The position numbers were made by a program, and so were the translations under genes. This document shows positions 30,511 to 51,010 of a stretch of 53,167 bases of DNA, one piece after another; position 1 is the first letter of the stretch; the number at the start of each line of letters is the position of its first letter. The notes below the pieces were generated by a model. It saw only the letters and a program-made list of their open reading frames with translations, was not told the origin of the DNA and ran no database searches. Where the stretch lies: NCBI GenBank assembly GCA_903915655.1, contig CAIWTU010000009.1, positions 1-53,167 on the forward strand. The letters run 5' to 3'. Origin of the DNA: an uncultured Geobacter sp. (GTDB lineage: Bacteria > Desulfobacterota > Desulfuromonadia > Geobacterales > Geobacteraceae).

Positions 30511-30529
30511 AAAAGAGGGAGTCCTTTCC

Positions 30530-30970
30530 ATGGATAGTATAAAGTTTCGTATGATGGAATTAAAAGCCAAAGGGTTCTACTGCAGCCAGATAATGATGTT
30601 CCTGGCATTGGAGAATCAGGACAAGACGAATGAAGATCTGCTCCGGTCCATGGCCGGTCTTGCCTTCGGGGCAGGTATCGGGAGCCAGGCATGTGGAGCG
30701 CTCACCGGTGGCGCCTGTATTCTGGCCCTTTACGCCGGAAAGGGGACGGATGAAGAAGAAGAAAATTTCCATCTGAATGCCATGCTGCAAGACTTGGGAA
30801 ATTGGTTTCTGGAGACATATGGCGGAATGTATGGCGGTGTAAGTTGCGATCTGATATCGGAAGACGGTTCTCTGCGGAATGAGCGCTGCGGCGCTATCGT
30901 CGCCGAGACCTACGCCAAGACAATTGAAATATTGATTGCCAATGGCCTGGATCCCGAGGACGGGCGATAG
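30530..30970 (+). CDS. C-GCAxxG-C-C family redox protein (DVU_1555-like)
   Basis: The 146-residue protein carries the spaced cysteines of the C_GCAxxG_C_C family: FYCSQ near the N-terminus, GSQACGALTGGACIL in the middle, then GGVSCDL and NERCGAIV. These proteins are thought to hold a metal or redox-active cysteine site. I start at ATG 30530, preceded by GAGGGA; longer in-frame starts lie inside the methyltransferase gene. Its stop is followed at once by the radical SAM start. Confidence 0.85.
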   Translation: MDSIKFRMMELKAKGFYCSQIMMFLALENQDKTNEDLLRSMAGLAFGAGIGSQACGALTGGACILALYAGKGTDEEEENFHLNAMLQDLGNWFLETYGGMYGGVSCDLISEDGSLRNERCGAIVAETYAKTIEILIANGLDPEDGR

Positions 30971-34732: not shown

Positions 34733-34733
34733 G

Positions 34734-36617: not shown

Positions 36618-36800
36618 AACCTCAAACCGCGGGAAAAGCTGGCGGCCGTTGTTAAGGGAAAGAATCTTGAAGTGACCGGAAAGTTCATCTCTTTTCTCAA
36701 GTCGCACGAAGCAGGCCCTATTTTCAGTAAATACAACTTTGTACCGCTGCGGAAAAATGTTGATCTTAAATCCAGGTATCAAACGGAGTCGGCAGTATGA
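36618..36800 (+). pseudogene. modA: modA remnant (molybdate-binding protein, C-terminal end)
   Basis: A frame without a start codon reads KLAAVVKGKNLEVTGKFISF, then LKSHEAGPIFSKYNFVPLRK, and stops at 36798-36800. This matches the end of ModA periplasmic molybdate-binding proteins. Just upstream, in another frame, MLGDIKPQT resembles an internal ModA segment, so a large internal deletion with a frame change is likely. The stop overlaps the modB start, the arrangement of an intact modAB operon. The functional ModA must be encoded elsewhere, or this transporter is no longer used. Confidence 0.7.
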
Positions 36801-37498
36801 TGGACCCGATAACCCTCTCCCTTAAAGTTGCCGTGATTGCCGTTTGCATTGTTTTTGTATTCGGTCTTGCGATTGCCCGCTTCATGGCGAGAAGAGACTT
36901 CATGGGGAAAAACCTGGTCGAATCGATCATTATTCTTCCGATGGTCCTTCCCCCGACGGTCCTCGGCTATGCGTTGCTTATCCTTCTAGGTAAGAGGGGG
37001 TTTATTGGCGAACTGCTGATGGAGCAGTTCGGGATACAGGTTGTATTCACCTGGTGGGCCGCTGTCCTGGCTTCCGCCATAGTCTCCTTTCCACTAATGT
37101 ATCAAAGCGCAAAAGCAGCATTCGCCAGTGTAGATATTTTCCTGGAACAGGCGGCGAGAACGCTCGGCACTGGAGAAATCCGCATTTTCCTGACCATCAC
37201 CCTCCCCCTTGCATGGCCTGGCGTCCTGGCAGGGCTGCTGCTTGCCTTCGCCAGGGCCCTTGGCGAATTTGGCGCCACCCTGATGGTGGCTGGGAATATA
37301 CCGGGGAAAACGCAGACTATCCCTATTGCCATCTATTCGGCCGTTGAAAGTGGGGACGACGAACTGGCCAAAGCACTGGTTCTGACCATAACTCTGATTT
37401 CTTTCGCAGCACTCTTTTTCCTTAACCGCTGGTCGAAAAAGAAGTCGGAGGTCTGGAGAAGGGGAGGCGCAGCTCATGCTGACAGCAGAAATATCTAA
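36797..37498 (+). CDS. modB: molybdate ABC transporter permease
   Basis: The 233-residue inner-membrane protein has about five hydrophobic segments and the permease loop EQAARTLGTGEIRIFLTITL, then PLAWPGVLAGLLLAFARALG and EFGATLMVAGN, which is typical of ModB. It would move molybdate (or tungstate) together with ModC. It overlaps the modA remnant upstream and the modC start downstream. A second ATG one codon later is an alternative start. Confidence 0.93.
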   Translation: MMDPITLSLKVAVIAVCIVFVFGLAIARFMARRDFMGKNLVESIIILPMVLPPTVLGYALLILLGKRGFIGELLMEQFGIQVVFTWWAAVLASAIVSFPLMYQSAKAAFASVDIFLEQAARTLGTGEIRIFLTITLPLAWPGVLAGLLLAFARALGEFGATLMVAGNIPGKTQTIPIAIYSAVESGDDELAKALVLTITLISFAALFFLNRWSKKKSEVWRRGGAAHADSRNI

Positions 37499-38165
37499 GT
37501 CGTTGCCCGGAATGACCATCGATGTGAAATTTGCCTTCGACCGCGGAATACTGGTCCTTTTCGGTCCGTCTGGCGCAGGGAAAACTACAATCCTGAATTG
37601 CCTTGCCGGACTGCAGGCGCCGGACAGCGGTGTCATTTCCCTGGGTGATCACCTCTTCTTTTCTTCCAGAGAGAAAATTGCAATCCCTGCCCGCCATCGC
37701 AAGATAGGGTATGTTTTTCAGGATAGCGCGCTTTTCCCACACATGACGGTGAAAGAGAACGTCCTGTACGGCGTCCCCTCCAGATGCAAGAAAGATGGCG
37801 GATGCCGGATGAGTGTCTTTGGGGTCATGGAACTACTCGGGATAACCGGCCTGCAGAATCGCTACCCGGCACAGTTGTCGGGCGGGGAAAAACAGCGGGT
37901 GGCGCTGGCTCGTGCGTTGATGGTGGAACCCGATCTTCTTCTGCTGGATGAACCGCTGTCGGCCCTCGACTTCGCCACGCGCAAGAGCCTCCAGGGTGAA
38001 CTCAAGCAGTTGCAGAAGATATGGCAGATCCCTTTCGTCCTGGTTACCCACAGCCGCAAGGAGATGAATGCGCTGGCGGACGAAATACTGTTTCTTGATA
38101 AGGGGCGACAGACCGGGTCCCAGCGTAACGACAAGCGCTATCCGAAGCTCTGTCTGGCTGTTTAG
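37476..38165 (+). CDS. modC: molybdate ABC transporter ATP-binding protein, short form
   Basis: The 229-residue ATPase has Walker A FGPSGAGKTTILN, signature QLSGGEKQRVALARALM and Walker B LLLLDEPLSALD. Typical ModC has about 350 residues with a C-terminal TOBE domain that binds molybdate for feedback; this one ends shortly after the H loop (VLVTHSRKEMNALADEILFL). It overlaps modB by 23 bases. Specificity is inferred from modB and the island; the short form would lack TOBE-type inhibition. Confidence 0.85.
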   Translation: MLTAEISKSLPGMTIDVKFAFDRGILVLFGPSGAGKTTILNCLAGLQAPDSGVISLGDHLFFSSREKIAIPARHRKIGYVFQDSALFPHMTVKENVLYGVPSRCKKDGGCRMSVFGVMELLGITGLQNRYPAQLSGGEKQRVALARALMVEPDLLLLDEPLSALDFATRKSLQGELKQLQKIWQIPFVLVTHSRKEMNALADEILFLDKGRQTGSQRNDKRYPKLCLAV

Positions 38166-38333: not shown

Positions 38334-39830
38334 ATGAGCACTCTTAACGCGGCAGTTGAGCTTCTTGCGCGCAATCTGGAACTTCACCCCGATAAACCCG
38401 CCTATTTCTGCGGAGAACAGTCCATCTCCTATCGCAAACTTGACGAAGAATGCCGGCTTTTCCACCTCCTTCTGCGAGAGAGGGGGATCCTCCCCGGAGA
38501 GCGTGTGCTTATACTCCTTCCCGATACGTTTGCCTTCCCGGTCGCCTTTCTCGGCTCCCTCCTGGCAGGTGTCATCGCGGTCGTAGCGAGCGGACTCCTC
38601 AGGGAAGAGGACTTCAGCTATATCCTGGAAGAGAGCGGCGCTCGCCTGCTGGTGACTCATCCCGACCTCTCCGCTCTCTGCGCGGCCGTCGGAGATGGTG
38701 TTGATCTGATCATCAGCGGAGATGACGGTTCATTCGGGGTTCCAGACGTTTCTCTGGGGGAGTGTCATCCGTACCGGCCAGCTGCCGACGATTTTGCCTT
38801 TATGCTTTACAGCTCCGGCTCCACCGGCAAGCCGAAGGGGATCCCTCACCGGCATCAGGACCTGCTCCTCCCGTGCGAACTGGTGGGGAGCAACATACTC
38901 GGCATCACAACGGATGACGTGATATTTTCCGCGAGTAAATTTTCCTTCGCCTACGGCCTGATAAACAGCCTCGCCTTTCCTCTCTTCTTCGGGGCCACTG
39001 CGGTCATCCATCCGGGCAAGCCCGACCCGGCTGCCATACTCCACATTATCCGGAACCGCCTGCCGACCATCTTCTTCTCCGTTCCGACAATCTATTCTCA
39101 GCTCATCCTCTCCTGCACCGACACCCAACTCGCTCTTCCCATGAGGATCTGCTACTCTGCCGGAGAAGCTCTGGCTGTGGCAATCTACGAAGAATGGCAA
39201 CGACTCACAGGCCTGGAGCTTGTCGACGGCATCGGTTCTACCGAGATGCTCTACGTCTATATCTCCAACCGCCCGGGAGAGACGAGACCTGGATCAATCG
39301 GACAAACGGTCCCCGGCTACCAGATAAGGCTGGTTGATGACGACGGCTACGACGTTCCGCCGGGAATCGAGGGGAACCTCCTGGTCAAAGGGGCCACAAT
39401 GGCGCCACACTACTGGAACCTTACGGAGAAAAGCGGAGGGACGATGCTTCCGGACGGTTATTGTCGGACCGGGGACGTCTCTCTGGAGCTGGATGGATTT
39501 TACTACTACAAGGGACGGAGCGATGACATGATAAAGGCCGGCGCCTACTGGGTTTCGCCGGTACCGGTGGAGGAGGCGCTGCTCAGCCATCCGGCCGTTG
39601 CCGAATGCGCCGTGGCCGCCGTAACTGTCGGCGCTTTCATAAAACCCGGGGCTTTTCTGGTGCTCGCCCCCGGAACGGAAGTGACCCCCGATCTTGTCTG
39701 GAATCTCCGGGACTATCTGATCTCCCGCCTTCCTGGATACATGTGTCCGGCCCGTTTCAAAATCGTGGAAGAGCTCCCCCGTACTGCAACGGGGAAAATT
39801 CAGCGATTCCGACTGACTGATCGCACCTAA
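38334..39830 (+). CDS. benzoate-CoA-ligase-like aryl/acyl-activating enzyme
   Basis: The 498-residue adenylate-forming enzyme has the nucleotide loop YSSGSTGKPKGIPHRHQD, the A5 region DGIGSTEMLYVYISN and the C-terminal Lys loop LPRTATGKIQRFRL. The stretch FSASKFSFAYGLINSLAFPL and the DGIGSTEML motif closely resemble benzoate-CoA ligases. It probably activates an aromatic or short acid as an adenylate. The next gene, 19 bp downstream, is an acyl carrier protein, so loading onto the carrier instead of CoA is plausible (inference). It begins the second cluster. The 168 bp upstream hold a weak hairpin near 38186-38217 and no clear promoter. Confidence 0.88.
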   Translation: MSTLNAAVELLARNLELHPDKPAYFCGEQSISYRKLDEECRLFHLLLRERGILPGERVLILLPDTFAFPVAFLGSLLAGVIAVVASGLLREEDFSYILEESGARLLVTHPDLSALCAAVGDGVDLIISGDDGSFGVPDVSLGECHPYRPAADDFAFMLYSSGSTGKPKGIPHRHQDLLLPCELVGSNILGITTDDVIFSASKFSFAYGLINSLAFPLFFGATAVIHPGKPDPAAILHIIRNRLPTIFFSVPTIYSQLILSCTDTQLALPMRICYSAGEALAVAIYEEWQRLTGLELVDGIGSTEMLYVYISNRPGETRPGSIGQTVPGYQIRLVDDDGYDVPPGIEGNLLVKGATMAPHYWNLTEKSGGTMLPDGYCRTGDVSLELDGFYYYKGRSDDMIKAGAYWVSPVPVEEALLSHPAVAECAVAAVTVGAFIKPGAFLVLAPGTEVTPDLVWNLRDYLISRLPGYMCPARFKIVEELPRTATGKIQRFRLTDRT

Positions 39831-39849
39831 CCGAAAGGAGGATAATGAT

Positions 39850-40083
39850 ATGGCAACCATCAATGAACTGAAGGAGTTGATGCTGAAAATCGGGATGAAC
39901 GGGGATATCGTAGCAGGGATGGATCCTGCAAAGCCGATCTCCCTGCAGGGGGTTGATTCCCTTGACTGTCCCGCTTTTGCCCTGGCGGTGGAAGAGCGTT
40001 GCGGGGTGAAGATCTCTGATGCGGACTCGCTCAAACTGAAGACCCTGAACGACTTCGTGAAATACATAGCCGTGGCGAAATGA
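39850..40083 (+). CDS. acyl carrier protein 1
   Basis: The 77-residue acidic protein has the phosphopantetheine attachment Ser37 in GVDSLDCPAFALAV, with the usual helix II that follows. AAAGGAGG precedes it, and its TGA overlaps the ATG of the next gene. It is distinct from the fatty-acid ACP consensus DSLD(T/V)VE, which points to a dedicated pathway. Its likely partners are the ligase upstream and the ketosynthase or GNAT-like genes downstream. Confidence 0.88.
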   Translation: MATINELKELMLKIGMNGDIVAGMDPAKPISLQGVDSLDCPAFALAVEERCGVKISDADSLKLKTLNDFVKYIAVAK

Positions 40084-41138
40084 TTATGGAGAGAGCCGAG
40101 GCGCTCAGACTCCTGGCCCTGGACCGGCGCACCGTCCCGGAAGGGGAGGAATATCGGGTCGGCTATTTCGAACCGTCCGATGGTCCCGGGGTGGCCCGAC
40201 TCTTCTACGCCGTCTATGGTGACGGCTACCCGATAGACACCTACTACATTCCCGAGCGTCTGGCAGAGGAGAACCGTCTCGGGACAATCCGCAGTGTGGT
40301 TGCGCGTACAGCTTCCGGCGACGTGGTCGTCCATGAGGCCCTTTATCGGAGTTCTCCACCCAACCCGAACCTCTACGAATTCGGGGTAGGGTTGACACTG
40401 CCCGCTTATCGTTCTACCACGGCTTTTTTCCGTGTCACACAGTTGTTAATTGAGCTGGTGGGAGATGACGGGATTGACGGGTTTTTCGGCGAAGCGGTCT
40501 GTAACCACATCGTAACCCAGAAGCTTTCCCGGCATGTGCAGGCGGTCGAAACCGCACTGGAACCGGCGCTCATGCCGGCTGAGACCTACGCGGCAGAGCG
40601 GAGCGCCTCCGGCCGGGTGGGGTGCATGCTCTATTCCCGGGTGGATCGCGATCGTCGCAGGATACTGCATCTTCCCAACCCCTATCGGGACGAACTGAAA
40701 TTTATCCTCGACGGCCTGAACCTCGACCGGGAACTGGTCGTCCCGGACCTTACCCCTCCAGACGGTGGTGGAGAGATCGATGTGAACCGTTTTCCCTCTG
40801 CAGGGGTCGCACGTTGCACGGTTACAGCGCCGGGTGGAGCTCTTGCCGGGCGATTGGCCGAACTTGAACGGGAACTGCGAGCGGACAACTACGCTCTGAT
40901 CCAGCTTTTCGTGGATCTTGGAAGAGCGTGGTCCGGCAATCTGGTTGAACAGTTGCGGGATTGCGGGTACTCCTTCGGTGGCCTCTTGCCGATCTGGTTC
41001 GGTGATGATGGTCTCCTGATGCAGAAGCACTTTGTAGATCCGGATTTCAACGGTATGAAGATCCACTCCGACCGCGGTCGCACTCTGTTGGAGCTGGTCA
41101 GGCGTGATTGGGAACGGGTTGCGAAGGGGATGGATTAG
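40080..41138 (+). CDS. GNAT-like acyltransferase, paralogue 1
   Basis: The 352-residue protein looks like a GNAT-fold protein: YFEPSDGPGVARLFYAVYGD near the N-terminus, and a second half ending PIWFGDDGLLMQKHFVDPDF. The end matches PRWFGADGIMMQQV in the gene at 45941, so the two are paralogues. GNAT proteins move an acyl group from CoA or a carrier protein to an amine. The acceptor here is not known. It is coupled to ACP 1 by ATGA. Confidence 0.7.
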   Translation: MIMERAEALRLLALDRRTVPEGEEYRVGYFEPSDGPGVARLFYAVYGDGYPIDTYYIPERLAEENRLGTIRSVVARTASGDVVVHEALYRSSPPNPNLYEFGVGLTLPAYRSTTAFFRVTQLLIELVGDDGIDGFFGEAVCNHIVTQKLSRHVQAVETALEPALMPAETYAAERSASGRVGCMLYSRVDRDRRRILHLPNPYRDELKFILDGLNLDRELVVPDLTPPDGGGEIDVNRFPSAGVARCTVTAPGGALAGRLAELERELRADNYALIQLFVDLGRAWSGNLVEQLRDCGYSFGGLLPIWFGDDGLLMQKHFVDPDFNGMKIHSDRGRTLLELVRRDWERVAKGMD

Positions 41139-41165
41139 GGAATCGATTATCTGAAAGGTACACCG

Positions 41166-42491
41166 ATGACACAGCAGGCAATCAGACAGAAAAGAGCAGT
41201 GACCCGGATACCGTTCACCCCCCCCTTCCTCCCGCTGGCGATGGAGTTCGCTGAAAAGGGGGCGCGGGGCTTCGGCTATAACGACCGGAAAACCGGCGGG
41301 CTGGTGCTGGCGGTTGAGGAGCTCTTCTCCTTTTATGTACGGCAGGGCGCAACGGACTCCGAAGTGGAGCTCGAACTGAAAGACGAGGGGTATCGCCTGG
41401 CGCTCTCCATCTCCTTCCGCACCCCCACACCGGATATGCGGGCGTTCAACCTGACCTGGCGCGTCAGCCAGGACAGCGAAGAATCTCTGGAGAGGCTGGG
41501 GCCGATGATCGCCGCCCGGACTGTTTCCAGTCTGCGTCTCGACTTCGGCTCCGATGACCGGGTGGTGATCAGTATGACCCTCGACCGGGAGTATCCCCCG
41601 GCGAGTGCCGTCCCCCTTCCCCCGCCCGGCGCTGCCAAAACAGCGAGACTTGCCTCTCCTTCCCTGGCCGATCTGCGGCACTTTGCCGGCATGGTAGCGA
41701 CGTCATCCTTCCCCTTCACTCCCTCTTTCCTTTCCCGGCCCGGCATGGCTGCCGACATGCTCGCTGCAGGTTCTCTGAATGCCTCGCTGGCCCTTGATGG
41801 CGAATGGATCGTCGGGGGGGTGCTCTGGCGGCCGCTGACCGACAGCTGCATCGAGCTGTATGGTCCCTACCTCTTCAACGATGACCCGGACGACAGTACG
41901 CTGACCATGCTGATCGACGAGGCGGTCAGTCGAATCTCGCATTCCCGTTCACGGGGGATTGTGCGGAGGCAGGGACCGCTTCCGGGGCACGAGCGTTTCT
42001 TCGATTTTCTCGGAGAGCTGGAAATGAGCGGGATCAGTGGAAATGCCGCACATCTGACCTACTATTACCGTCAGCTCAGGGAGGAGAATGGCGGCGTGGT
42101 TTACTGCCCCGTGATACTGGCGGACTTCCTGCGTGATCAGTACGACCGGCTATCCCTCCCGAGGCAGCTGCGCGAAACCGGTGGCGACACCGCTCGGTTT
42201 CGCGAAGCATCCGTGCTTGCAGTCGAACTGGAACAGCCGCGTTCCCTGGCGGTGATCCGACCTCTCTGCGCCGGAAGGGATATGGCCGCCAACCTGGCCG
42301 CGCATCTGGACCTTTTGCGTGGTGAGGGGATAAAGAACTTCGTTGTCGAGATCAACACCGGACGCGTGGAGGATACCAGTTTCGCGGACGCGCTGGAGGA
42401 GACCGGCTTTGTCCCGCGACTGCTGATACCAGACGCAGGTCAGGGCGACCTTCTTGTCTATGACCATTCCGGCTGGAACGTGCACCAATGA
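41166..42491 (+). CDS. RsbW-like domain fused to a GNAT-like domain
   Basis: The 441-residue protein has an N-terminal 140 residues reminiscent of anti-sigma-factor-type ATPases (IPFTPPFLPLAMEFAEKGAR, then LVLAVEELFSFYV). This is the helix-then-LAVEE pattern of RsbW, but the later G boxes are unclear. The C-terminal part resembles the GNAT-like paralogues in the cluster (LRHFAGMVATSSFPF, and PRLLIPDAGQGDLLVYDHS at the end). Its role could be catalytic or regulatory. The stop overlaps the aminotransferase start (ATGA). Confidence 0.6.
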   Translation: MTQQAIRQKRAVTRIPFTPPFLPLAMEFAEKGARGFGYNDRKTGGLVLAVEELFSFYVRQGATDSEVELELKDEGYRLALSISFRTPTPDMRAFNLTWRVSQDSEESLERLGPMIAARTVSSLRLDFGSDDRVVISMTLDREYPPASAVPLPPPGAAKTARLASPSLADLRHFAGMVATSSFPFTPSFLSRPGMAADMLAAGSLNASLALDGEWIVGGVLWRPLTDSCIELYGPYLFNDDPDDSTLTMLIDEAVSRISHSRSRGIVRRQGPLPGHERFFDFLGELEMSGISGNAAHLTYYYRQLREENGGVVYCPVILADFLRDQYDRLSLPRQLRETGGDTARFREASVLAVELEQPRSLAVIRPLCAGRDMAANLAAHLDLLRGEGIKNFVVEINTGRVEDTSFADALEETGFVPRLLIPDAGQGDLLVYDHSGWNVHQ

Positions 42492-43600
42492 ACCTTGATG
42501 CAATGGTTCCCAACTATGTCCGCTGTTTCCAGAACTACGTCCCGAGCCGGCCAGATCACCTGCTGCTGCAGGAGTATGGCGCACCGCTCCTTCATCGCCT
42601 GAACAACAACGAAAACCCCCTTGGCCCCCCCCCAGCCGCTGCACGCGCCATCGCCTCATTTCCTCCGGAGCTGGCAGCCATCTATCCGAGCGGAGACTCC
42701 TACGACCTGCGTGAGGCCCTCGGCCGCCGCTTCGATATATCCCCCGACCGGTTCCTTGTAGGGAACGGTTCCTGTGAGGTGATCTCGCTGATAATAAAGG
42801 CATTCTGTCAGGCCGGGGAGAACATCGTCACCGCAGACAAGACCTTTGCTGTCTACGAATGGGTGGCCAAATTTTCCGGCATAGAGGCGAGGCTGGTTCC
42901 GCTGCGCGACTACGCTTTCGACCCGCAGGGGATGCTGGAGAGGGTCGATTGCCGCACCAAGGTCCTCTTTGTCTGTAACCCCAACAACCCGACCGGCAGC
43001 TACTGGACGCAACAGATTTTGACAGATTTTCTGGAAAAGGTCGGAGATGATCGTATCGTGGTGGTGGATGAGGCTTACCGCGAGTTCGTGGAAGACGAAC
43101 TCTATCCGGACGCTATCCGGCTGATGGAGCGCTTCCCCAACCTGGTTGTCTTTCGCACCTTCTCCAAGATGTACGCCCTGGCTGGACTCCGGTCAGGCTA
43201 TCTGGTCGGGTCCGATGCGGTAGTGGATCTGGTCAGGCGCACCAGCGTGGCCTATTCGGTTAATGTTCAAGCACAGCAGGCCGCGCTGGCAGCACTGTCC
43301 GACGATGTTGAACACATTGCCGCTACCATAGCGCTGGTCAAGCAGGGCAAAGCACTGCTGCGTGGGGTCTGTAACGAACTGGAATTGGAGACAATCGGCG
43401 GCGAAGGCAATTATCTGATGATCAGGACCCCCATAAACGACATGCTCATGTACCGCCGTCTGATGAAGCGGGGTATGATGGTGCGTACCATGACCGGTTT
43501 CCGTTTTCCAGGCTGGATCAGGGTTACTCTCCGTGAGATGGCCGTTATGGAGAGTTTTGCCGAGGCGCTGAGAGAGGAAATAAAGGTGATTCGCAAATGA
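42488..43600 (+). CDS. HisC/CobD-like PLP aminotransferase
   Basis: The 370-residue fold-type I enzyme has NENPLGPPPAAARAIASFPP, GNGSCEVISLIIKAF, CNPNNPTGSYW and VVVDEAYREFVED. The PLP lysine is in FRTFSKMYALAGLRSGYLVG. It resembles histidinol-phosphate aminotransferase (and L-threonine-phosphate decarboxylase), but it sits in a carrier-protein pathway with no histidine genes nearby. It may make or use an amino-acid-derived building block (inference). It is translationally coupled to the gene before it. Confidence 0.88.
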   Translation: MNLDAMVPNYVRCFQNYVPSRPDHLLLQEYGAPLLHRLNNNENPLGPPPAAARAIASFPPELAAIYPSGDSYDLREALGRRFDISPDRFLVGNGSCEVISLIIKAFCQAGENIVTADKTFAVYEWVAKFSGIEARLVPLRDYAFDPQGMLERVDCRTKVLFVCNPNNPTGSYWTQQILTDFLEKVGDDRIVVVDEAYREFVEDELYPDAIRLMERFPNLVVFRTFSKMYALAGLRSGYLVGSDAVVDLVRRTSVAYSVNVQAQQAALAALSDDVEHIAATIALVKQGKALLRGVCNELELETIGGEGNYLMIRTPINDMLMYRRLMKRGMMVRTMTGFRFPGWIRVTLREMAVMESFAEALREEIKVIRK

Positions 43601-43622
43601 TCCTGAATCAAAGATATCCGAA

Positions 43623-45944
43623 ATGACAACAGAACCAAAATCAGTTGAAATAGGTAAACCGGAAATTCGCGGTGACGCGGTTGCAAAGGCGTCCGGCAAG
43701 GAGCGCTTTAGTGCAGACTATTTCCCGGATGACCTGATCTGGGCTGGTGCGGTGCGTGCCGGAGTCCCAAGCGGCAGGTTATTGAACGTGGATGCGACAG
43801 CTGCGCTGGCTCTGCCCGGTGTGTTGAAAGTGTTGACGGCTGCCGATGTGCCGGGACCCAACCGGCACGGCATTATCCACAAGGATATGCCGGTGCTGGT
43901 GAATGACCGGATACTCTATTCCGGTGATGCCGTGGCGCTGGTGCTGGCTGAGACGCGTGAGGCGCTGAAGCAGGCCATCGCTCTGGTGAAGGTTGATATT
44001 GAAAAGATACCGGGGGTGTTCGATCCGGACTCTGCAGTGGCGGCAGGGGCGCCACAACTTCACGATGCATTTCCGAACAATCTGCTGATGGCAGCCGAGA
44101 TTCGCAAAGGGGATCCCCTGGCTGCCCTGGACAGGTGTGACATGGTGGTGGAGGGGGAATTTTCCACTCCGGTGCAGGCACATGCCTTTCTGGAAACGGA
44201 AAATGGCGTGGCCAGGCAGGAGGAAGACGGCAGCATCAGCATGACCGTATCGACCCAGTCTCCATTTCGCGACCGTTTCGAAGTCGGCCATGCCCTCGGA
44301 ATTCCCTTCAACAGGATTCGCATTGCCGCCCCCTGTCTGGGGGGCGGTTTTGGCGGCAAGGACGGCGTGACAGTGCAATGTTTGCTGGCACTGGCGGCGC
44401 TGCATGCCAATGGCAGGACGGTCAAGATGCAGTGGGATCGGGAAGAGAACCTGGCAGCCGGTTACAAGCGCCATGCCTGCAAGCTGAAGTATCGTCTTGG
44501 GGCCCTTAGTGATGGCACTCTACATGCCCTCAACTGCTCTCTCATCTATGATACCGGCGCTTATTCCCATCTTGGGGGCGAGGTGATGGAGCTGGGAATG
44601 GAACATGCCGGCGGTCCCTACCGTATCCCCCATGTGCTGATCGAAGGGAACTCTGTATTCACCAACAACCCGGTAGCAGGCGCCATGCGGGCTTTCGGAG
44701 TCTGTCAGGCCACCTTTGCCTTTGAATCGATGATGGACCTGTTGGCGCAGAAACTGGGGGTCGACCCGTTGGAACTACGCTTGCGAAATGCACTGATCGA
44801 CGGGGATACCAATTGTGTCGGTATGCGCCTGATTACCTCTACCGGGGTCCAGGGCTGTCTGAAAATCGTGCGAGATCATCCTCTCTGGCTGGAGCGTGAG
44901 GAGTGGAAACAGCAGGCACCTCCCAACACCAGGCGCGGTGTCGGTCTGGCATCGGTGTTCAATGCTGCCGGTTACGGAGGAAAGGTGCGTGACTCGGCCA
45001 TTGCCAAGGTGGAATTGACTTTGGAGGGGAAGATCCTTGTCCATAACGCCGTAACGGACATGGGGCAGGGGAATTCCAGCGCCTTTCTGCAGATAGCCGG
45101 GCATATTACCTGCCAGGACGCTGCACAGCTCGAACTGCGCCAGCCGGACACCGGCACAGCTTACCCTTCAGGCTCATCGTCAGCCGGTCGGACTACCTAC
45201 ACCTATGGCAACGCCCTGGTCAAAGCCTGCGAAGAGCTGAAAGCACGTCTGATCAACCGTGCCGGACTCCTCCTCTTTATCGACAGCGACCGGGATCTGC
45301 AACTTGCTCCCGGCAAGGTGGTTCATCCCCCCAGCAATCGGGAAGTGCCGTTTCAACAGCTGGCCTCGTTTATGCCGCAGGAGGACCGTGTTTGCATCAG
45401 CCACTTTGTGGCGCCGATCTGTGAAAATATCCCGCAGACTTCCAACGGTTTTTTTGTAGGATTTCCCCATCTGATCTTCGCCTACGGCGCCCACCTTGCC
45501 CGTCTTGAAGTCGATCTGCTGACCGGGCTTATCCGGGTCTGCGACTACCTTGCGGCGACTGACGGTGGCGCGGTTATAAATCCTTCCATGTTTGACCAGC
45601 AGGTGCAGGGTGGCGTTGCCCAGGGGGTCGGCTATGCTTTGATGGAGGATCTGGTCACAGATGAAGGGATTGTACGGAGCGCCGATTTCACAACCTATCT
45701 GATCCCGGGAGCAATGGATCTGCCGGATACGGTCTCGCTTGCATATCAGGGGCATGAGGATACCGGTCCCTTTGGGATGAAAGGGGTAGGGGAGGTGGCC
45801 ATGAACGGCCCGCTGCCGGCAATTGCCAACGCCCTGGCCGACGCCTGTGGTATCCGCCTCTGCCATGCGCCGCTCACGCCGGAACGGGTCTTGTCGGAGT
45901 TAGCAATTAATCAAAATAAAGAAACAGGTAAAATCCAGCCATGA
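43623..45944 (+). CDS. molybdenum hydroxylase large subunit (CoxL/XdhA family)
   Basis: The 773-residue Mo-binding subunit starts IGKPEIRGDAVAKASGKERF and has the cofactor-contact PCLGGGFGGKDG and AGAMRAFGVCQATFAFE. The catalytic Glu724 is in GMKGVGEVAMNGP. The family includes xanthine dehydrogenase, 4-hydroxybenzoyl-CoA reductase and aerobic CO dehydrogenase; here there is no fused Fe-S domain. The matching Fe-S and FAD subunits are encoded at 48512 and 48988, so three subunits should assemble. The separation by five features is unusual. The substrate may be CoA- or carrier-bound (inference). Confidence 0.9.
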   Translation: MTTEPKSVEIGKPEIRGDAVAKASGKERFSADYFPDDLIWAGAVRAGVPSGRLLNVDATAALALPGVLKVLTAADVPGPNRHGIIHKDMPVLVNDRILYSGDAVALVLAETREALKQAIALVKVDIEKIPGVFDPDSAVAAGAPQLHDAFPNNLLMAAEIRKGDPLAALDRCDMVVEGEFSTPVQAHAFLETENGVARQEEDGSISMTVSTQSPFRDRFEVGHALGIPFNRIRIAAPCLGGGFGGKDGVTVQCLLALAALHANGRTVKMQWDREENLAAGYKRHACKLKYRLGALSDGTLHALNCSLIYDTGAYSHLGGEVMELGMEHAGGPYRIPHVLIEGNSVFTNNPVAGAMRAFGVCQATFAFESMMDLLAQKLGVDPLELRLRNALIDGDTNCVGMRLITSTGVQGCLKIVRDHPLWLEREEWKQQAPPNTRRGVGLASVFNAAGYGGKVRDSAIAKVELTLEGKILVHNAVTDMGQGNSSAFLQIAGHITCQDAAQLELRQPDTGTAYPSGSSSAGRTTYTYGNALVKACEELKARLINRAGLLLFIDSDRDLQLAPGKVVHPPSNREVPFQQLASFMPQEDRVCISHFVAPICENIPQTSNGFFVGFPHLIFAYGAHLARLEVDLLTGLIRVCDYLAATDGGAVINPSMFDQQVQGGVAQGVGYALMEDLVTDEGIVRSADFTTYLIPGAMDLPDTVSLAYQGHEDTGPFGMKGVGEVAMNGPLPAIANALADACGIRLCHAPLTPERVLSELAINQNKETGKIQP

Positions 45945-46951
45945 CAGAGTCACCTTTTAGCATTAAGCCGGTTGATGCTTCCTGCGCCAATATGGTTCCA
46001 GAGGTATTCCGTTCGATTTACGGTGACAATTTTCCCGTAGAATATGTCTATCATGGCAATCAGATTCTGGAGGAGATCGAATCCGGGCGACTGAATTCGG
46101 CCATTGCGTTAAATACGAAAGGGATACCGGTTGGTTATGTTGCAATCTACATAAATTCTCCCAATTGCAGGTTATGGGAAGGGGGCAACCTGCTGGTCGT
46201 TCCTGGTTGTGGTGACGGCGATCTGGCCCGGGCTCTGTTCCGGCATTTCCTCCGTCCAGAAAATATGCCTGAATCCGCCTCTGCCGGGATGTTTGTAGAG
46301 GCTGTCTGTCACCATTATTTTACCCAGGTGGGGTGCTCCAAGTCCGGTTTTGTAGACTGTGCACTGATGCTGGATCAGACGGATCGCGAAGACTTCAAGG
46401 AGCATGCCCCCGAAACGGAGCGGGGTGCCTGTCTATTGCAGTTTTACGAACAGTCTGATCCGATCTCAGAATGCTACCTTCCGGATCACTATTTCGATCT
46501 GTTGCAAGGTTTGCTCAAGAATCTGCGCCCCCGGAGAGTAAGGTCCGGCTCCGCACCGTTGCCGGTCGAAGGGGACACCGCGCGGAGTGATAGATATTTT
46601 GCCGGTGCGGGGATGTGCCGGGTTTCCGTCAGTTCCATAGGTAGTGACTGGGGAACTTTTCTGGACGAGTTGCTTGTTCAAGCCCGACTACGTCAGGTGA
46701 CCAGCCTCCAGCTGGTACTTTCCACCGCTCTCCCCTACATAAGTGCGGCTGTTGAAGAGATGCGGCAACGACGATTTTTTCTGGGAGGGATATTCCCGCG
46801 CTGGTTCGGCGCTGACGGTATAATGATGCAGCAGGTGCTGGACAAGAGGCCGGACTATGAGGGGATCAAGCTGTATACGGCTGGGGCCAGGGAGCTGCTG
46901 GCTTCTATCCGTGAAGATTGGAAATCCGTACAGGAGGAAAACAAAAAATGA
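45941..46951 (+). CDS. GNAT-like acyltransferase, paralogue 2
   Basis: The 336-residue protein shares its overall layout with the gene at 40080: FRSIYGDNFPVEYVYHGNQI early, and PRWFGADGIMMQQVLDKRPD near the end. It starts in the ATGA overlap with the Mo subunit and its stop overlaps the ketosynthase gene's ATG. Two GNAT-like paralogues around the ketosynthase suggest successive or alternative acyl transfers (inference). Confidence 0.68.
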   Translation: MTESPFSIKPVDASCANMVPEVFRSIYGDNFPVEYVYHGNQILEEIESGRLNSAIALNTKGIPVGYVAIYINSPNCRLWEGGNLLVVPGCGDGDLARALFRHFLRPENMPESASAGMFVEAVCHHYFTQVGCSKSGFVDCALMLDQTDREDFKEHAPETERGACLLQFYEQSDPISECYLPDHYFDLLQGLLKNLRPRRVRSGSAPLPVEGDTARSDRYFAGAGMCRVSVSSIGSDWGTFLDELLVQARLRQVTSLQLVLSTALPYISAAVEEMRQRRFFLGGIFPRWFGADGIMMQQVLDKRPDYEGIKLYTAGARELLASIREDWKSVQEENKK

Positions 46952-47985
46952 GACAGTCTGCGGGGATACTGGGAACAGGCGCCTGTTTGCCGGAACAGGT
47001 GCTGACCAATCTTGAACTTGCCGAACGCTTTGGGGTCACTCCGGACTGGATTTTTGAACGGACCGGTATCGTGCAACGCCATATTGCCGCTCCGGAACAG
47101 GCCTGTTCCGATCTTGCCATTGCCGCTGCCCGGCAGGCAATGGAAAATGCGGCCACTGCTCCTGAAGAGATCGGTATGGTGATTGTTGCCACCATTACCG
47201 GTGATTACACCACTCCTGCCACGGCAGCCATTGTTCAGGGAGTCCTTGGAATTCCTGCCGTAGCCTGTTTTGACCTGTCAGCAGCCTGTTCCGGTTTTGT
47301 CTACGGTATGATCGTGGGGAGTCATGCCATCAGCTGCGGCTTTTGCAACAAAGTTCTGGTGGTGGGGTCTGAAGTGCTGTCACGTTTCACGAATCAGACG
47401 GATCGCGACAGCGCCATCCTGTTTGGCGACGGAGCCGGCGCAGTGGTACTTGGTGGTGTCCCTGAAGGATACGGCCTCCTGGCAACCGATGCTGGTACCT
47501 GTGGAACGGAATACCAGGCTATTATTATTCCGGCTGGCGGCAGTCGCCTGCCTCCTTCAGCAGAAACCATTGCAGCGCACCTGCATTACTCGCATATGGA
47601 TGGGAACCAGGTCTTCATGTTTGCCATGCGGGTGCTGGGAAACTCCACCTTGCGTACGATAGAAAAAGCCGGACTGTCGCTTGACGATATCTCGTTGATC
47701 ATTCCGCATCAGGCAAATCGCCGCATAATTGAGGCGGCGGCAGGTCGTATGGAGTTGCCTTTAAGCAAGATTGTGATAAATCTGGAGCAGATCGGAAATA
47801 CCTCATCCGCTTCGATTCCGATTGCCCTGCATGGCGTCCTCACTGACGGGCGAATCAGGCATGGTGATCGGTTGGTGTTGACCGGGTTCGGTGGTGGTGT
47901 AAGCTGGGGTTCTGCATTGATTCGCTGGCACTCCCCTGGAAGTGACCAAATTCATAAAAAGGAGAAAAACGATGACAACAACTGA
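46948..47985 (+). CDS. beta-ketoacyl-ACP synthase III-like enzyme
   Basis: The 345-residue protein has an intact catalytic triad: Cys114 (DLSAACSGFVYG), His254 (IIPHQANRR) and Asn284 (EQIGNTSSAS), matching FabH spacing. It starts at ATG 46948 after GGAGGAAA. FabH-like enzymes join an acyl-CoA to a malonyl-ACP or act as acyltransferases. Together with two carrier proteins and a ligase this indicates a dedicated chain-building or ester-forming step. Its end overlaps the start of ACP 2 by 14 bases. Confidence 0.93.
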   Translation: MRQSAGILGTGACLPEQVLTNLELAERFGVTPDWIFERTGIVQRHIAAPEQACSDLAIAAARQAMENAATAPEEIGMVIVATITGDYTTPATAAIVQGVLGIPAVACFDLSAACSGFVYGMIVGSHAISCGFCNKVLVVGSEVLSRFTNQTDRDSAILFGDGAGAVVLGGVPEGYGLLATDAGTCGTEYQAIIIPAGGSRLPPSAETIAAHLHYSHMDGNQVFMFAMRVLGNSTLRTIEKAGLSLDDISLIIPHQANRRIIEAAAGRMELPLSKIVINLEQIGNTSSASIPIALHGVLTDGRIRHGDRLVLTGFGGGVSWGSALIRWHSPGSDQIHKKEKNDDNN

Positions 47986-48217
47986 GAAGATCCGTGGATT
48001 GATTCTGAAGGTAGCCAAAGGGAAGCTGTCGCAGGAAGCTCTCAAGCCTGAAGCCAGGCTGAGCGAAGAGCTGGGGTTGGACTCGCTGGCACAGTCCGAG
48101 TTGCTGGTGCTTGCGGAAGACAGCTTCGGCATAAAATTTACCCATGATGAGGTCTGGACTGTGGCAACAATCGGGCAGATGGTTGAAGTGATTGACAGTC
48201 GTCTGGCTGCTAAATAG
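47972..48217 (+). CDS. acyl carrier protein 2
   Basis: The 81-residue protein has Ser38 in EELGLDSLAQSELLVLAE. It starts at ATG 47972 with AAAAGGAG upstream; a longer in-frame start lies inside the ketosynthase gene. It is more like a standard ACP (GLDSL) than ACP 1. Two different carriers in one operon suggest two acyl intermediates. Confidence 0.88.
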   Translation: MTTTEKIRGLILKVAKGKLSQEALKPEARLSEELGLDSLAQSELLVLAEDSFGIKFTHDEVWTVATIGQMVEVIDSRLAAK

Positions 48218-48231
48218 GCGTCAGGTAACTG

Positions 48232-48282
48232 CGGCATCGCCTCCCTTTCTCCTGGCTGATGGGGGAGGGGGAGGTGATGCCG
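48232..48282 (+). terminator. hairpin after ACP 2
   Basis: CGGCATCGCCTCCC (48232-48245) pairs with a right arm ending GGAGGTGATGCCG at 48282. It is stable but not followed by a T-run, so it may be a partial terminator inside the cluster. Confidence 0.5.
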
Positions 48283-48321
48283 AACAGCTTCTTAGGATTC
48301 TGTTTTTTACGATAATATCTT

Positions 48322-48450
48322 AGCCTCTTGCTAAAGTATCCCGTTCATGGTTCGACAAGCTCACCACGAACGGGATATCAACCAGTTATTGGAGTAAAGT
48401 CCGTTCGCCCTGAGCGTGTCGAAGGGTGATAAGGACTTTTGCAAGAGGCT
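48322..48450. repeat. 129-bp MITE/REP-like composite with 16-bp inverted ends
   Basis: The ends AGCCTCTTGCTAAAGT and ACTTTTGCAAGAGGCT are inverted copies (15 of 16). Inside are two hairpins, CCCGTTC...GAACGGG and CGTTCGCCCTGAGCG with TGTCGAAGGG. A 23-bp part recurs at 20853-20875. It lies between ACP 2 and the Fe-S subunit, inside what otherwise reads as one operon. There is no clear target duplication. The gap 48218-48511 otherwise holds only the hairpin at 48232. Confidence 0.7.
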
Positions 48451-48511
48451 CATCTCCGTTGGTTATAGATCCGGCTCCCCCAATAGTGCTTCAAGCTCTG
48501 GAGTGAAAACT

Positions 48512-48991
48512 GTGCAATTAACCTTTGAACTTAATGGAAAAAATATATGCATTAAAACCCCTGCCGACCGGCGGGTTATTGATCTGCTGCGTGGGGAGAT
48601 GGGGCTGACCGGCACCAAGGAAGGGTGTGGCGCCGGCGAGTGTGGCGCCTGCACAATTCTGGTTAATGGTGAAGCTCGTCTTTCCTGTCTGATGTTGGCG
48701 GCACAACTTGAGGGAACTGTAGTCGGGACTGCGGAAGGACTGGAACTCGCTCCTGATGGTCTCCTGCTTCAGCAGGCTTTTGCCGAAGAGGGTGCGGTGC
48801 AGTGCGGTTTCTGTATTCCCGGTATGGAGATGGCGGCCCTGGCGCTTTTGCGGGATGATAGCAACCCGTCGCGGGAGAAGATCAGGGTTGCGCTTTCCGG
48901 CAACCTCTGCCGCTGTACCGGTTACGTCAAGATCGTCGATGCGGTGGAGCGGGCGGCCGGAGATATCCGTTGTTGCAGGGAGGGGAAATGA
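48512..48991 (+). CDS. molybdenum hydroxylase [2Fe-2S] subunit (CoxS family)
   Basis: The roughly 159-residue protein has two [2Fe-2S] sites: CGAGECGACTILVNGEARLSC and CGFCIPGMEM with CRCTGYVKIVDA. I start at GTG 48512, which has GGAG at the right distance; the frame is open further left through the repeat, which I consider accidental. The stop overlaps the next ATG (ATGA). It should pass electrons from the Mo subunit at 43623 to the FAD subunit. Confidence 0.93.
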   Translation: MQLTFELNGKNICIKTPADRRVIDLLRGEMGLTGTKEGCGAGECGACTILVNGEARLSCLMLAAQLEGTVVGTAEGLELAPDGLLLQQAFAEEGAVQCGFCIPGMEMAALALLRDDSNPSREKIRVALSGNLCRCTGYVKIVDAVERAAGDIRCCREGK

Positions 48992-49836
48992 GAGCTGTCC
49001 TGAAACCTGCCTCCCTGGAAGAGCTCTTTTACCAGTTGGACCGGCGCCCCGAAGCCTTGCTGATGGCTGGAGGGACAGACCTGCTGATCAGGCTTCGCAG
49101 CAAACCGGCCCCGGATGATCGCCCGCTGCTCCTCCTTGCGGATCTGGACGAGCTTCAGGGTATCAAAGATACGGGGAATGAGATCTCGATCGGCGCGGCG
49201 ACAACGTTGACTCGACTGATCGCCGACCCGCTGAGCCGACATCATGCGCCGCTCCTTATTCGTGCGGCCCGAACCATCGGTGGCCCGGCCGTCAGGGGGA
49301 TGGCCACCCTGGGCGGCAATATCCGCACCGCCTCACCGGCCGGCGATTCACTCCCTCCGCTCTACCTCCTTGGCGCAGAGGTTGAACTGGCCTCGCGGCA
49401 GGGAAGGCGCCGTCTGCCGATCGCGGAATTCGTCGCAGGCCCGGGCCGAACACGGCTTCACAACCGCGAGATCGTCACCCGCATCCTGTTGCCCCATGCG
49501 GAAAATTTCCCTTCGCAGACATTTGAGAAGGTCGGCCTGCGCAGGTCGCTGGCCGTGGCAGTAACCAGCTTTGCCGGGATGGCGCGGCTTTCCGCCGCCG
49601 GCATTCTGGAGGAGGTCCGTTTTGCCTGGGGGAGCGTGGCTCCGACTGTTGTCAGGCTCCTCGGACTGGAGGCGGAACTGGTCGGCGCCACGCTCGACAG
49701 GGATACTATCCGCAATGCAGCGGAAATTGTGCGACAGGGCGTCTCCCCCGTCGACGATATCCGTGCTACGGCGGACTACCGGCGGAGAGTGGCCGGAAAC
49801 CTGCTGGTCCGTTTCTTGGAGGGGATCCATGTCTGA
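48988..49836 (+). CDS. molybdenum hydroxylase FAD-binding subunit (CoxM family)
   Basis: The 282-residue protein starts MRAVLKPASLEELFYQLDRR and has the FAD contacts LMAGGTDLLIRLRSKP and TIGGPAVRGMATLGGNIRTA, then SPAGDSLPPLYLL. The C-terminal CO-dehydrogenase flavoprotein-like domain completes it (RRRVAGNLLVRFLEGI). With the CoxS-type subunit it forms the electron exit of the hydroxylase. ATG 48988 overlaps the previous stop. Confidence 0.93.
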   Translation: MRAVLKPASLEELFYQLDRRPEALLMAGGTDLLIRLRSKPAPDDRPLLLLADLDELQGIKDTGNEISIGAATTLTRLIADPLSRHHAPLLIRAARTIGGPAVRGMATLGGNIRTASPAGDSLPPLYLLGAEVELASRQGRRRLPIAEFVAGPGRTRLHNREIVTRILLPHAENFPSQTFEKVGLRRSLAVAVTSFAGMARLSAAGILEEVRFAWGSVAPTVVRLLGLEAELVGATLDRDTIRNAAEIVRQGVSPVDDIRATADYRRRVAGNLLVRFLEGIHV

Positions 49837-51010
49837 ACCGTCCCGCTTGTTTTCCCCCGGATTTCTGGTGATCGCTCTCCAGTTTGCGCTGGTGACGGCC
49901 ATAGCCGCACTCTTCTACGCGTTTTCTGGGTATCTTTCGTATCTGGGGGTCAGTCAGGCCACAGCCGGTTTCATCATCAGCGCCGATGCGCTGGCTGCGT
50001 TGATTGTCCAGCCGATGATCGCACCTCTGGTGCACCCCGGCACGTCCCGCCGCTGGCTTTTCGGCGGCTCGCTCACCCTTGCCGCCGCGCTCTTTATCGC
50101 TGGACATGTGACGACGGTCCCGTTCCTGATCGCCGCGCGCCTGCTGCAGGGGGCCGGCTTCATCTGCGTTGTCTCGGCCCTGATCACCATGATCGTCCAG
50201 TTTATTCCCCCCGAGATGAGCGGACGCGCCTTTGGCGCTGTTTCCCTCATACGCCTGATCCCCTACGCCGTAATCCCCACCATCTTTGATCTGGTTAAGA
50301 TTACGCCTTCCGCCTTCAGGACGGTACTGGACGTGGCAGCGGTAATAGCGCTCCTCCCGATTCTGGCGCTGGCGCTTCCGGCGCAGCGGCAGAGCGTGGA
50401 GCAGGGTTGTCTGAGCGCTCCGGGGATATCCGGCCTGCTCGACGCTCTCCGCTCAGCTGCAGTGCTGATGCTGCTCCTTTCGGCGCTCCTCTTTTTCTGC
50501 GGAAATTCTGCTATCTTTTTTTACCTCAAACAGTTCGGCTCCAGTATGGGAATCGCCAACACGAGTCTCTTCTTTACCATTGCGACCGTGGTGATGATCC
50601 TTGTCAGGTTTTTCGGAGGATGGGCGTTTGACAGCTACAACAAGGTTCTGCTATGCATTGCGGGACTTCTCGCGGTTGCCATATCCTATGCCCTTCTGCC
50701 GATGTCAGCATCCGGCCGCATTTTTTTCACCCTTGCGGGAATTTCCGGGCTCGGATGGGGCATTGTGATGCCGCTGCAGGCAGCGTTCATGTTCGATATT
50801 TCAACGCCGCAGATGCGCGGCATGAACCAGAACCTCCTGATCGTCATGATGCAGGGAGGGTTCTTTCTCGGCCCGTTTCTTGGCGGCCAGATCATCTCCC
50901 GTTCTGGCTATGGAGCTCTCTTTGCCTTTCTGGCTGCGGTTACCCTCTTGTCTTTGTTGATGATGGCAGGGGCCGGATATTATTCAAGAAAAGATAAATT
51001 GCGCATCTAA
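49829..51010 (+). CDS. major facilitator superfamily transporter
   Basis: The 393-residue protein has about 12 hydrophobic segments (FLVIALQFALVTAIAALFYA at the start). A domain-1 motif-like stretch is PMIAPLVHPGTSRRWLFGGS, and MGIANTSLFFTIATVVMIL lies in the second half. I start at ATG 49829, which has GGAGGGGAT upstream and overlaps the end of the FAD subunit. It is the last gene of the cluster before a strong terminator. It may export the product or import the substrate (inference). Confidence 0.88.
   Translation: MSEPSRLFSPGFLVIALQFALVTAIAALFYAFSGYLSYLGVSQATAGFIISADALAALIVQPMIAPLVHPGTSRRWLFGGSLTLAAALFIAGHVTTVPFLIAARLLQGAGFICVVSALITMIVQFIPPEMSGRAFGAVSLIRLIPYAVIPTIFDLVKITPSAFRTVLDVAAVIALLPILALALPAQRQSVEQGCLSAPGISGLLDALRSAAVLMLLLSALLFFCGNSAIFFYLKQFGSSMGIANTSLFFTIATVVMILVRFFGGWAFDSYNKVLLCIAGLLAVAISYALLPMSASGRIFFTLAGISGLGWGIVMPLQAAFMFDISTPQMRGMNQNLLIVMMQGGFFLGPFLGGQIISRSGYGALFAFLAAVTLLSLLMMAGAGYYSRKDKLRI

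Follow-up and report, generated by a model that had tools for sequence, protein, structure and literature searches.

A conserved gene cluster with two acyl carrier proteins, a molybdenum hydroxylase and GNAT-fold proteins in Geobacter and other bacteria

Discrete acyl carrier proteins (ACPs) that serve GNAT acyltransferases have a described precedent in the SB-203208/altemicidin (sbz) pathway of Streptomyces. In the parts of its published description that deal with acyl transfer, discrete adenylating enzymes load ACPs, from which the GNATs SbzC and SbzI pass the acyl group to a hydroxyl or amine; coenzyme A (CoA) could not replace the ACP for SbzC, and the SbzB/G,K/C and SbzL/G,K/I sets, each an adenylating enzyme, an ACP and a GNAT, function in vitro (PMC6331615). 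The locus considered here occupies positions 38334-51010 of a 53,167-nucleotide (nt) stretch of DNA (the window) from an uncultured Geobacter sp. whose assembly totals 3.36 Mb. Its twelve open reading frames (ORFs), all on the + strand, form a real, conserved biosynthetic cluster for which, as the initial annotation of this DNA had supposed, no description was found in the open-licence PMC literature among the matches listed. The commonest part of the cluster across genomes is a core of an RsbW-GNAT fusion (RsbW-GN), a HisC-like aminotransferase, a xanthine dehydrogenase (XDH)-type Mo hydroxylase, an MFS protein taken to be an exporter, and the GNAT-fold protein GN1.

Like this locus, the sbz cluster has two discrete ACPs (SbzG and SbzK), discrete adenylation and GNAT acyltransferases. 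It has two adenylating enzymes (SbzB and SbzL); in the present locus the two ACPs would be supplied by a single ligase and a single KASIII. The HisC-like/Mo/RsbW-GN core does not appear in those parts of the sbz description, and GN1 is likened to SbzC and SbzI by role, not by sequence (PMC6331615). Closer to the organism, the main text of the Geobacter lovleyi genome paper (PMC3403914) has no mention of acyl carrier, benzoate, ketoacyl, polyketide or benzoyl-CoA; molybdopterin is named there twice, in one passage and for other enzymes. None of the six antiSMASH regions of a Desulfuromonas is named as being of this kind in the corresponding part of PMC9484754.

The genes of the cluster, with one intergenic gap, are the following.
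38334-39830, + strand: LIG, benzoate-CoA-ligase-family adenylating enzyme (TIGR02262; PDB 2v7b)
39850-40083, + strand: ACP1, with Ser37 (PF00550, 28 bits)
40080-41138, + strand: GN1, GNAT domain at residues 23-194 and a C-terminal alpha/beta domain (AlphaFold2 model; ATGA overlap with ACP1)
41166-42491, + strand: RsbW-GN, an RsbW/SpoIIAB-fold domain, a GNAT domain at residues 158-305 and a C-terminal domain (predicted structure and alignment)
42488-43600, + strand: HisC-like pyridoxal phosphate (PLP) aminotransferase (PF00155; TIGR01141)
43623-45944, + strand: MoL, XDH-type Mo hydroxylase large subunit (PucD 534 bits; GVGE motif)
45941-46951, + strand: GN2, second GN1-family protein (27% identical to GN1 in the alignment)
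46948-47985, + strand: KS3, a KASIII with Cys114-His254-Asn284 (TIGR00747; PDB KASIII enzymes)
47972-48217, + strand: ACP2, with Ser38 (PF00550, 36.9 bits; alignment with eight other rows)
48218-48502, no strand: intergenic gap between ACP2 and the Fe-S gene, with a palindromic repeat inside; the equivalent place in the relative L032 holds an acyltransferase-domain gene
48503-48991, + strand: 2Fe-2S subunit (PF01799, PF00111; GTG at 48503 the likely start, 48416 possible)
48988-49836, + strand: FAD subunit (PF00941, PF03450; ATGA overlap)
49829-51010, + strand: MFS transporter (PF07690, 113 bits)

The ORF list bears out twelve genes at this place in a single orientation. The initial annotation had also described their junctions as mostly ATGA overlaps, which holds for only five of the eleven (4 nt each); the others are gaps of 19, 27, 22 and 285 nt, the last between ACP2 and the Fe-S gene, and overlaps of 14 and 8 nt, a count that assumes starts at ATG 47972 for ACP2 and at 48503 for the Fe-S gene. 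Pfam and NCBIfam name nine of the twelve proteins (the ligase, both ACPs, the aminotransferase, the Mo, Fe-S and FAD subunits, KASIII and the MFS protein), and Pfam finds nothing at E 0.01 for the remaining three, GN1, GN2 and RsbW-GN.

A core that recurs across genomes

Relatives of GN1 occur at E 0.001 in 17 of 141 genomes of the order, and a scan with the GN1 alignment across one genome per species (84,980 species) confirmed 29 loci. These include Desulfobulbus elongatus DSM 2908, Trichlorobacter thiogenes ATCC BAA-34, Desulfobacter vibrioformis DSM 8776 and a Desulfovibrio, together with metagenome-assembled genomes assigned to Thiodictyon, Chlorobiaceae, Nitrospiraceae, Syntrophaceae and Acidobacteria. 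Gene order in relatives was read by BLAST against the window proteins on mechanical ORFs; longer overlapping frames can mask genes under best-match labels, and presence counts in these loci are lower bounds. The initial annotation had staked its proposal on a conserved neighbourhood, and L032 indeed retains all twelve genes in the same order, at 51-80% identity, with two more added. Desulfobulbus elongatus (L053) and Thiodictyon (L054) share the order ligase-ACP1-GN1-RsbW-GN-HisC-MoL-FeS-FAD-MFS, with no match to KS3 or ACP2.

RsbW-GN alone was found, at E 1e-30, in 47 of 395 genomes of the phylum and 38 of 246 genera. The phylum sample of the core consists of 40 stretches of at most 20 kb, many ending at contig ends and two (L117 and L119) repeating others (L067 and L069). 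In 38 of them a HisC-like gene shares the strand of RsbW-GN and is no more than 150 nt away; the distance is 206 nt in L128, and L136 has no HisC match. By best match, 30 regions have the Mo subunit (distantly similar in L121), 28 the FAD subunit, 25 the MFS protein and 23 GN1, with the ligase in three, ACP1 in two and both of these together in two. ACP1 is absent from the stretch examined in 28 of the 30 Mo-bearing regions, only two carrying both, and likewise from eight of ten Mo-bearing loci in the named set, one of which (L077) has an ACP-like domain on GN1. Because the Mo subunit is common without ACP1, the Mo enzyme appears to belong with the core of aminotransferase, GNAT-fold proteins and exporter; and since ligase and ACP1 occur together so rarely and KASIII, ACP2 and GN2 not at all in these regions, the ligase-ACP1-GN1 and KASIII-ACP2-GN2 sets look like add-on modules.

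The family of the HisC-like aminotransferase (PF00155) stands as first assigned, with one refinement. Its TIGR01141 score of 272.2 narrowly misses the equivalog cut-off of 276.55, and because another protein of the same genome (G000:C77) scores 345 bits, it is a HisC paralogue. In a tree of 59 cluster HisC-like proteins and the canonical one, the window's protein groups with those of L032, L037, Desulfobulbus, Thiodictyon and Chlorobiaceae (support 100/99), a set from three phyla for which horizontal transfer is the simplest reading. On this tree the ligase/ACP label requires six changes against 12.8 in shuffles, a difference to which near-copies contribute.

The Mo enzyme has the MoCoBD domains, the GxGE catalytic Glu and the Fe-S and FAD subunits of the XDH/AOR superfamily of Mo hydroxylases, with subunit pattern and Glu in common with PucD/XdhA and nicotinate dehydrogenase (3hrd). 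MoL scores best as XDH (PucD 533.8 bits, cut-off 783.65; XdhA 482.1, cut-off 780) and falls below these and every other equivalog cut-off listed. Cluster-type Mo subunits are present in all eight other Geobacterales genomes tested, at 58-83% identity and in two of them as pieces. The initial annotation had called the enzyme a CoxMSL-type hydroxylase, and aerobic CO dehydrogenase does share its three separate subunits; but its CO dehydrogenase scores are poor (216 and 255 bits; CoxL TIGR02416 215.9 against a cut-off of 991), and where CoxL has what we take to be its active-site loop, the Cys-bearing AYRCSFR, MoL reads GAMRAFGVCQ. The Cox assignment was rejected on score and loop together.

MoL also differs from xanthine dehydrogenase itself. 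All 42 aligned rows, of which two are second fetches, have Asp after GG[AG]FGGK, giving KD for KE, and Leu at the Arg880 position, with the catalytic Glu kept, so that MoL lacks Glu802/Arg880 (bovine numbering), presumably the purine-binding pair. An adenosine-deaminase gene (TIGR01430 above cut-off) in two cores of one genus in which no Mo genes were found (L147:7282-8283 and L150:6855-7832) gives a weak hint of an N-heterocyclic substrate. Two genes named 'solute carrier family 23', which we take to mean nucleobase/ascorbate permeases, lie near the core copy on plasmid pTs417 of Candidatus Thiodictyon syntrophicum. A purine substrate, considered on account of these genes, is weakened by the absence of the Glu/Arg pair in all 42 rows.

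RsbW/SpoIIAB anti-sigma kinases share their fold with residues 7-142 of RsbW-GN. In the RsbW-GN model (predicted local distance difference test, pLDDT, 87.6) this domain matches 8ih8_D (Z 16.9, root-mean-square deviation (rmsd) 1.8 over 122 residues) and the GNAT domain matches 4mbu (Z 15.8, rmsd 2.3, 145 residues), in agreement with the fusion that had been read from the sequence; the sole NCBIfam match among GN1, GN2 and RsbW-GN is this protein's RsbA-type one, at 19.6 bits against a cut-off of 210. Unlike those kinases, RsbW-GN is fused to a GNAT and a further domain and does not have the N-box Asn, presumably the Mg-ATP motif of RsbW-type kinases, which is missing in 19 of 19 RsbW-GN rows and retained in a relative outside the cluster. 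Without it the protein falls outside the RsbW-type kinases, and Mg-ATP binding in the RsbW manner would not be expected. A GN1 relative with Pfam-recognised HATPase and GNAT domains, adjoining an MFS-like gene in a cluster stretch (L035:3500-4972), is perhaps a less degenerate ancestor type of RsbW-GN.

STAS, SpoIIE-phosphatase or NMT1-type genes accompany the core in 17 of the 40 regions (singly in 13, 15 and 8), and no homologues of these proteins were found in the 53-kb window. On pTs417 the core stands beside such regulators and transposase genes, without MoL; in this one annotated record the two core GN proteins are labelled hypothetical.

Two acyl-carrier modules

LIG belongs, as first proposed, to the family of the benzoate-CoA ligases (2v7b, 4rlf) and anthranilate-CoA ligase (4wv3), scoring 420.4 bits for TIGR02262 against a subfamily cut-off of 375.25 and 370 bits against 2v7b. 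It has the FAYG motif in common with the benzoate ligases, but the His of the LHIF motif of benzoate and anthranilate ligases is Tyr in LIG, its pocket-region motifs KFSFAYGLIN and GSTEMLYVY are unlike those of benzoate ligases, and its gene is followed by a dedicated ACP gene. ACP1, ACP2 and every row of both alignments (14 other rows for ACP1, three of them second fetches) carry the phosphopantetheine Ser in a DS motif, which confirms the predicted Ser37 of ACP1 and Ser38 of ACP2, the latter counted from ATG 47972.

GN1 had been described as GNAT-like, and its AlphaFold2 model, built from 32 rows (mean pLDDT 93.9), shows a GNAT domain: residues 23-194 match GNAT enzymes, best 2ge3 (Z 13.1, rmsd 2.5, 156 residues), and a GN1 profile had no match at E 10 among PDB sequences. 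The fold is thus assigned by models in GN1 and RsbW-GN, GN2 being placed by alignment only. The acetyl-CoA loop of GNATs, which we take to be Q/R-x-x-G-x-G/A, is missing from both GN1 (YRSTTAF) and GN2 (CGDGDLA).

Twenty-two fetched rows, from 17 distinct genomes, have an ACP1 match above 80 bits, and 20 of these loci have ACP1 and GN1 on one strand with less than 100 nt between them; the two are 130 nt apart in L133, and in L063 the ligase stands between them. Ligase and GN1 are both within 400 nt of ACP1 in 14 of the 22 rows (three of them second fetches) and in the window, where a discrete adenylation-ACP-GNAT trio of the sbz type is formed by three genes together. The module is spread over Geobacterales, Desulfobulbus, Thiodictyon, Chlorobiaceae and others. 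GN1 of Desulfovibrio sp. DV (L077) has an N-terminal ACP-like domain, with no separate ACP within 21 kb; the first 100 residues score 15.3 bits, and none of 2000 shuffles exceeds 8.2. What the genomes show directly is which genes are present, their catalytic residues, how they are conserved and that ACP and GN genes are neighbours; GN1 is probably an ACP1-dependent acyltransferase.

Some copies of this module have further genes beside them. Two BadF-type and two HGD-D-type genes adjoin ligase and ACP1 in L033, L035 and L039 (Pfam), those of L033 scoring below the benzoyl-CoA reductase cut-offs, and in Desulfobacter vibrioformis BcrA-D-like genes directly follow ligase-ACP1-GN1 (L065:11081-15566), BcrB scoring 599 against a cut-off of 487 and the other three falling below theirs. 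These genes suggest that some lineages may reduce a carrier- or CoA-bound aromatic acid. Benzoyl-CoA-reductase-like genes by the L127 and L156 cores, on the opposite strand and near an aldehyde ferredoxin oxidoreductase (Pfam in L127), are probably unrelated. L065 also has a second ligase and a saccharopine-dehydrogenase-like gene. Possible tailoring enzymes are a PLP decarboxylase-like protein (below cut-off) encoded after ligase-ACP1-GN1 at L138:18147-19592 and a flavin amine oxidase encoded behind GN1 at L155:14415-15512. Next to an Acidobacteria core, L074:11456-15636 holds an HMG-CoA-synthase-like gene, two enoyl-CoA-hydratase-like genes and a ketosynthase, which look like a beta-branching cassette.

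The second module combines GN2, KS3 and ACP2. KS3 scores 345.5 bits for TIGR00747, above the KASIII cut-off of 292.1, and has the Cys114-His254-Asn284 triad that had been predicted. GN2 is recovered as a GN1 relative at E 7.7e-31, has a 63% orthologue in L032 and probably partners ACP2. Window-type GN2, KS3 and ACP2 occur together in six Geobacterales genomes, the window's included, with two copies each of GN2 and ACP2 in L037. Two genes are extra in L032: one for an SDR, placed after MoL and before GN2, and one for an acyltransferase-domain protein, which separates ACP2 from the Fe-S gene; they are what malonyl condensation and reduction would need and were counted in favor of this module. 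One protein of about 1,100 residues in L037 (7465-10857) joins 2-oxoacid dehydrogenase E1alpha-E1beta and a lipoyl domain to a KASIII (Pfam), and BLAST finds the same fusion at L040:2905-6237.

GN1-family proteins also occur in other contexts. At L050:3245-9813 a LuxE gene and a gene for a LuxC-PaaK fusion precede that of a 500-residue relative (Pfam), with a similar arrangement, by BLAST order and length, in L042, L049 and L051. Another family member in the window's own genome, 32% identical (G000:C160:50399-51394; L045:10238-11401), adjoins a CoA-transferase family III gene.

A proposed pathway and its alternatives

The locus is read here, with confidence evenly balanced for and against, as making and exporting a small compound that is N-acylated (or O-acylated), with two acyl-carrier modules set upon the core. 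We infer from the genes all of the reactions, the substrates and the product, and also that GN1 and GN2 use ACP, not CoA. The HisC-like aminotransferase would handle an amine or amino-acid scaffold and the three-subunit Mo hydroxylase would oxidise it, the two enzymes together making or trimming the acceptor; the probable substrate of the Mo enzyme is thus the core scaffold rather than an acid bound to a carrier. The core GNAT-fold proteins would acylate this scaffold, and RsbW-GN may be another transferase or may bind the RsbU/V/W-type regulators found beside many cores elsewhere. The two carrier-protein modules would have been gained in the window's lineage. In the first, LIG would adenylate an aromatic-type acid and load ACP1, from which GN1 would move the acyl group to the scaffold; in the second, KS3 would join an acyl starter and a malonyl unit, leaving the product on ACP2 for GN2 to transfer. 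Acyl transfer from the ACPs onto an amine is proposed by analogy with SbzC and SbzI, and the MFS protein would export the product. Gene content and conservation support the carrier-protein pathway of the initial annotation, in which a member of the aromatic-acid-ligase family stands beside a dedicated ACP, plus a transporter.

Several observations weigh against this reading. ACP1 is missing from most core loci, so that GN1 need not always depend on it. The KASIII module was seen only in the six Geobacterales genomes, with KS3, ACP2 and GN2 found by best match in 0 of the 40 phylum core regions, and the 53-kb window has no homologues of the acyltransferase and SDR genes of L032. The acetyl-CoA loop is degenerate throughout the GN1 family: none of the 12 rows beside ACP1 retains it, and two of the 20 other rows do; its loss does not single out ACP users, and the GN proteins may be dead. 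An idea tying loop loss to the presence of ACP1 was rejected on these counts. The ACP-like domain of L077 has no DS motif and is absent from the list at E 1e-3; its alignment spans only 32 residues, and within the full protein the score is 11.6 bits.

The initial annotation had the Mo enzyme hydroxylate or reduce the acid on a carrier, taken here as an aromatic acid on ACP1 that would afterwards be extended and transferred. Genes for the ligase, ACP1 and Mo subunits are indeed co-located in the window, L032, L053, L054, L133 and L138, and Mo enzymes of aromatic thioesters exist, such as 4-hydroxybenzoyl-CoA reductase, as which the cluster enzyme scores 394 bits (cut-off 995). Such a step is nevertheless unlikely, since only two of the 30 Mo-bearing phylum regions carry ACP1 and the Chlorobiaceae copy has ligase and ACP1 with no Mo genes on its 9.3-kb contig. 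The adjacency of ACP1 to GN1 rather than KS3 speaks against a type II fatty-acid-like initiation, with an aryl starter from LIG extended by KS3 into an aryl-capped lipid or aryl polyketide. This route has in its favor the acyltransferase-domain and SDR genes that accompany KASIII and ACP2 in L032 and the KASIII-E1-lipoyl fusion of L037, which could provide an acyl starter; but a FabF-type ketosynthase (PF00109) is absent from the twelve cluster proteins, and HisC, the Mo enzyme and the exporter would be left unexplained, making it quite unlikely.

A regulatory core, in which RsbW-GN and GN1 signal in a partner-switching circuit while the enzymes make or destroy a ligand, would account for the STAS, SpoIIE-phosphatase or NMT1-type genes of 17 regions and of the plasmid copy. 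It is improbable: the 53-kb window has no homologue of those proteins, and an RsbW kinase is not expected where the N-box Asn is absent from all 19 rows. Uptake of an aromatic acid and its degradation via a thioester seems very improbable: a ligase of the benzoate family is at hand, and benzoyl-CoA-reductase-type genes stand by LIG, ACP1 and GN1 in some Geobacter relatives and in Desulfobacter vibrioformis (BcrB, L065), but reductase genes are absent from the window and most copies examined. To our knowledge, carrier proteins, KASIII and GNAT-fold proteins are not part of known aromatic degradation.

The proposal of scaffold acylation may be extended, tentatively and with more doubt than belief, to an undescribed class of anaerobe clusters. 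Its mobile core, in about one-eighth of sampled home-phylum genomes and often by an RsbU/V/W circuit, would comprise the pseudo-ATPase-GNAT fusion, the HisC-like aminotransferase, a new Mo hydroxylase clade, the exporter and GN1, and might make a heteroaromatic amide for export, which perhaps serves in signalling or as a redox mediator. The GN proteins would then be a new ACP-dependent GNAT branch, and lineages would swap acyl-supply modules, among them ligase-ACP, benzoyl-CoA-reductase-type dearomatisation on the carrier, and the E1-lipoyl-KASIII fusion.

Genomic neighbourhood and significance

Genes for molybdate uptake and Mo-enzyme maturation precede the cluster.
33677-35876, + strand: XdhC-family maturation factor and DVU_1551-family NTP transferase (NF045664 and NF045665, above cut-off)
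36797-38165, + strand: modB and modC, molybdate uptake, directly upstream of LIG (NCBIfam)

ModB scores 258.6 bits for TIGR02141 (cut-off 182.6), and ModC 234.7 for TIGR02142, below its cut-off of 285. Further upstream, positions 24282-35876 hold an aldehyde oxidoreductase cluster: aldehyde oxidoreductase, a dicluster protein, DVU_1556 methyltransferase, DVU_1555, the radical SAM protein TrsS, DVU_1553 ligase, the XdhC-type factor and DVU_1551, with modBC next. Nine of ten proteins scanned from this cluster and modBC are above their NCBIfam cut-offs, ModC being the one below; the scan left out the gene at 35833-36531. The XdhC- and DVU_1551-type factors could mature the cluster's Mo enzyme too, and similar genes adjoin the MFS gene in several other copies of the cluster (for example L054, L037 and L040). 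The palindromic repeat in the gap between ACP2 and the Fe-S gene lies at 48401-48426; the genome has six copies of it and none of the reversed control pattern. A remnant gene in this gap was considered and rejected; beyond the Fe-S gene itself there are short weak matches only, the best (ModC) at E 0.001.

The natural products that sulfate reducers, Geobacter relatives and syntrophs make have been little explored. This cassette, which is conserved, linked to a transporter and apparently passed on horizontally, includes a distinct Mo hydroxylase clade and offers a concrete target in named strains, and the recurrence of its central genes across many anaerobes makes the product worth finding. If it is true that GN1 and GN2 accept acyl groups from ACPs, the GNAT superfamily would gain an ACP-dependent branch.

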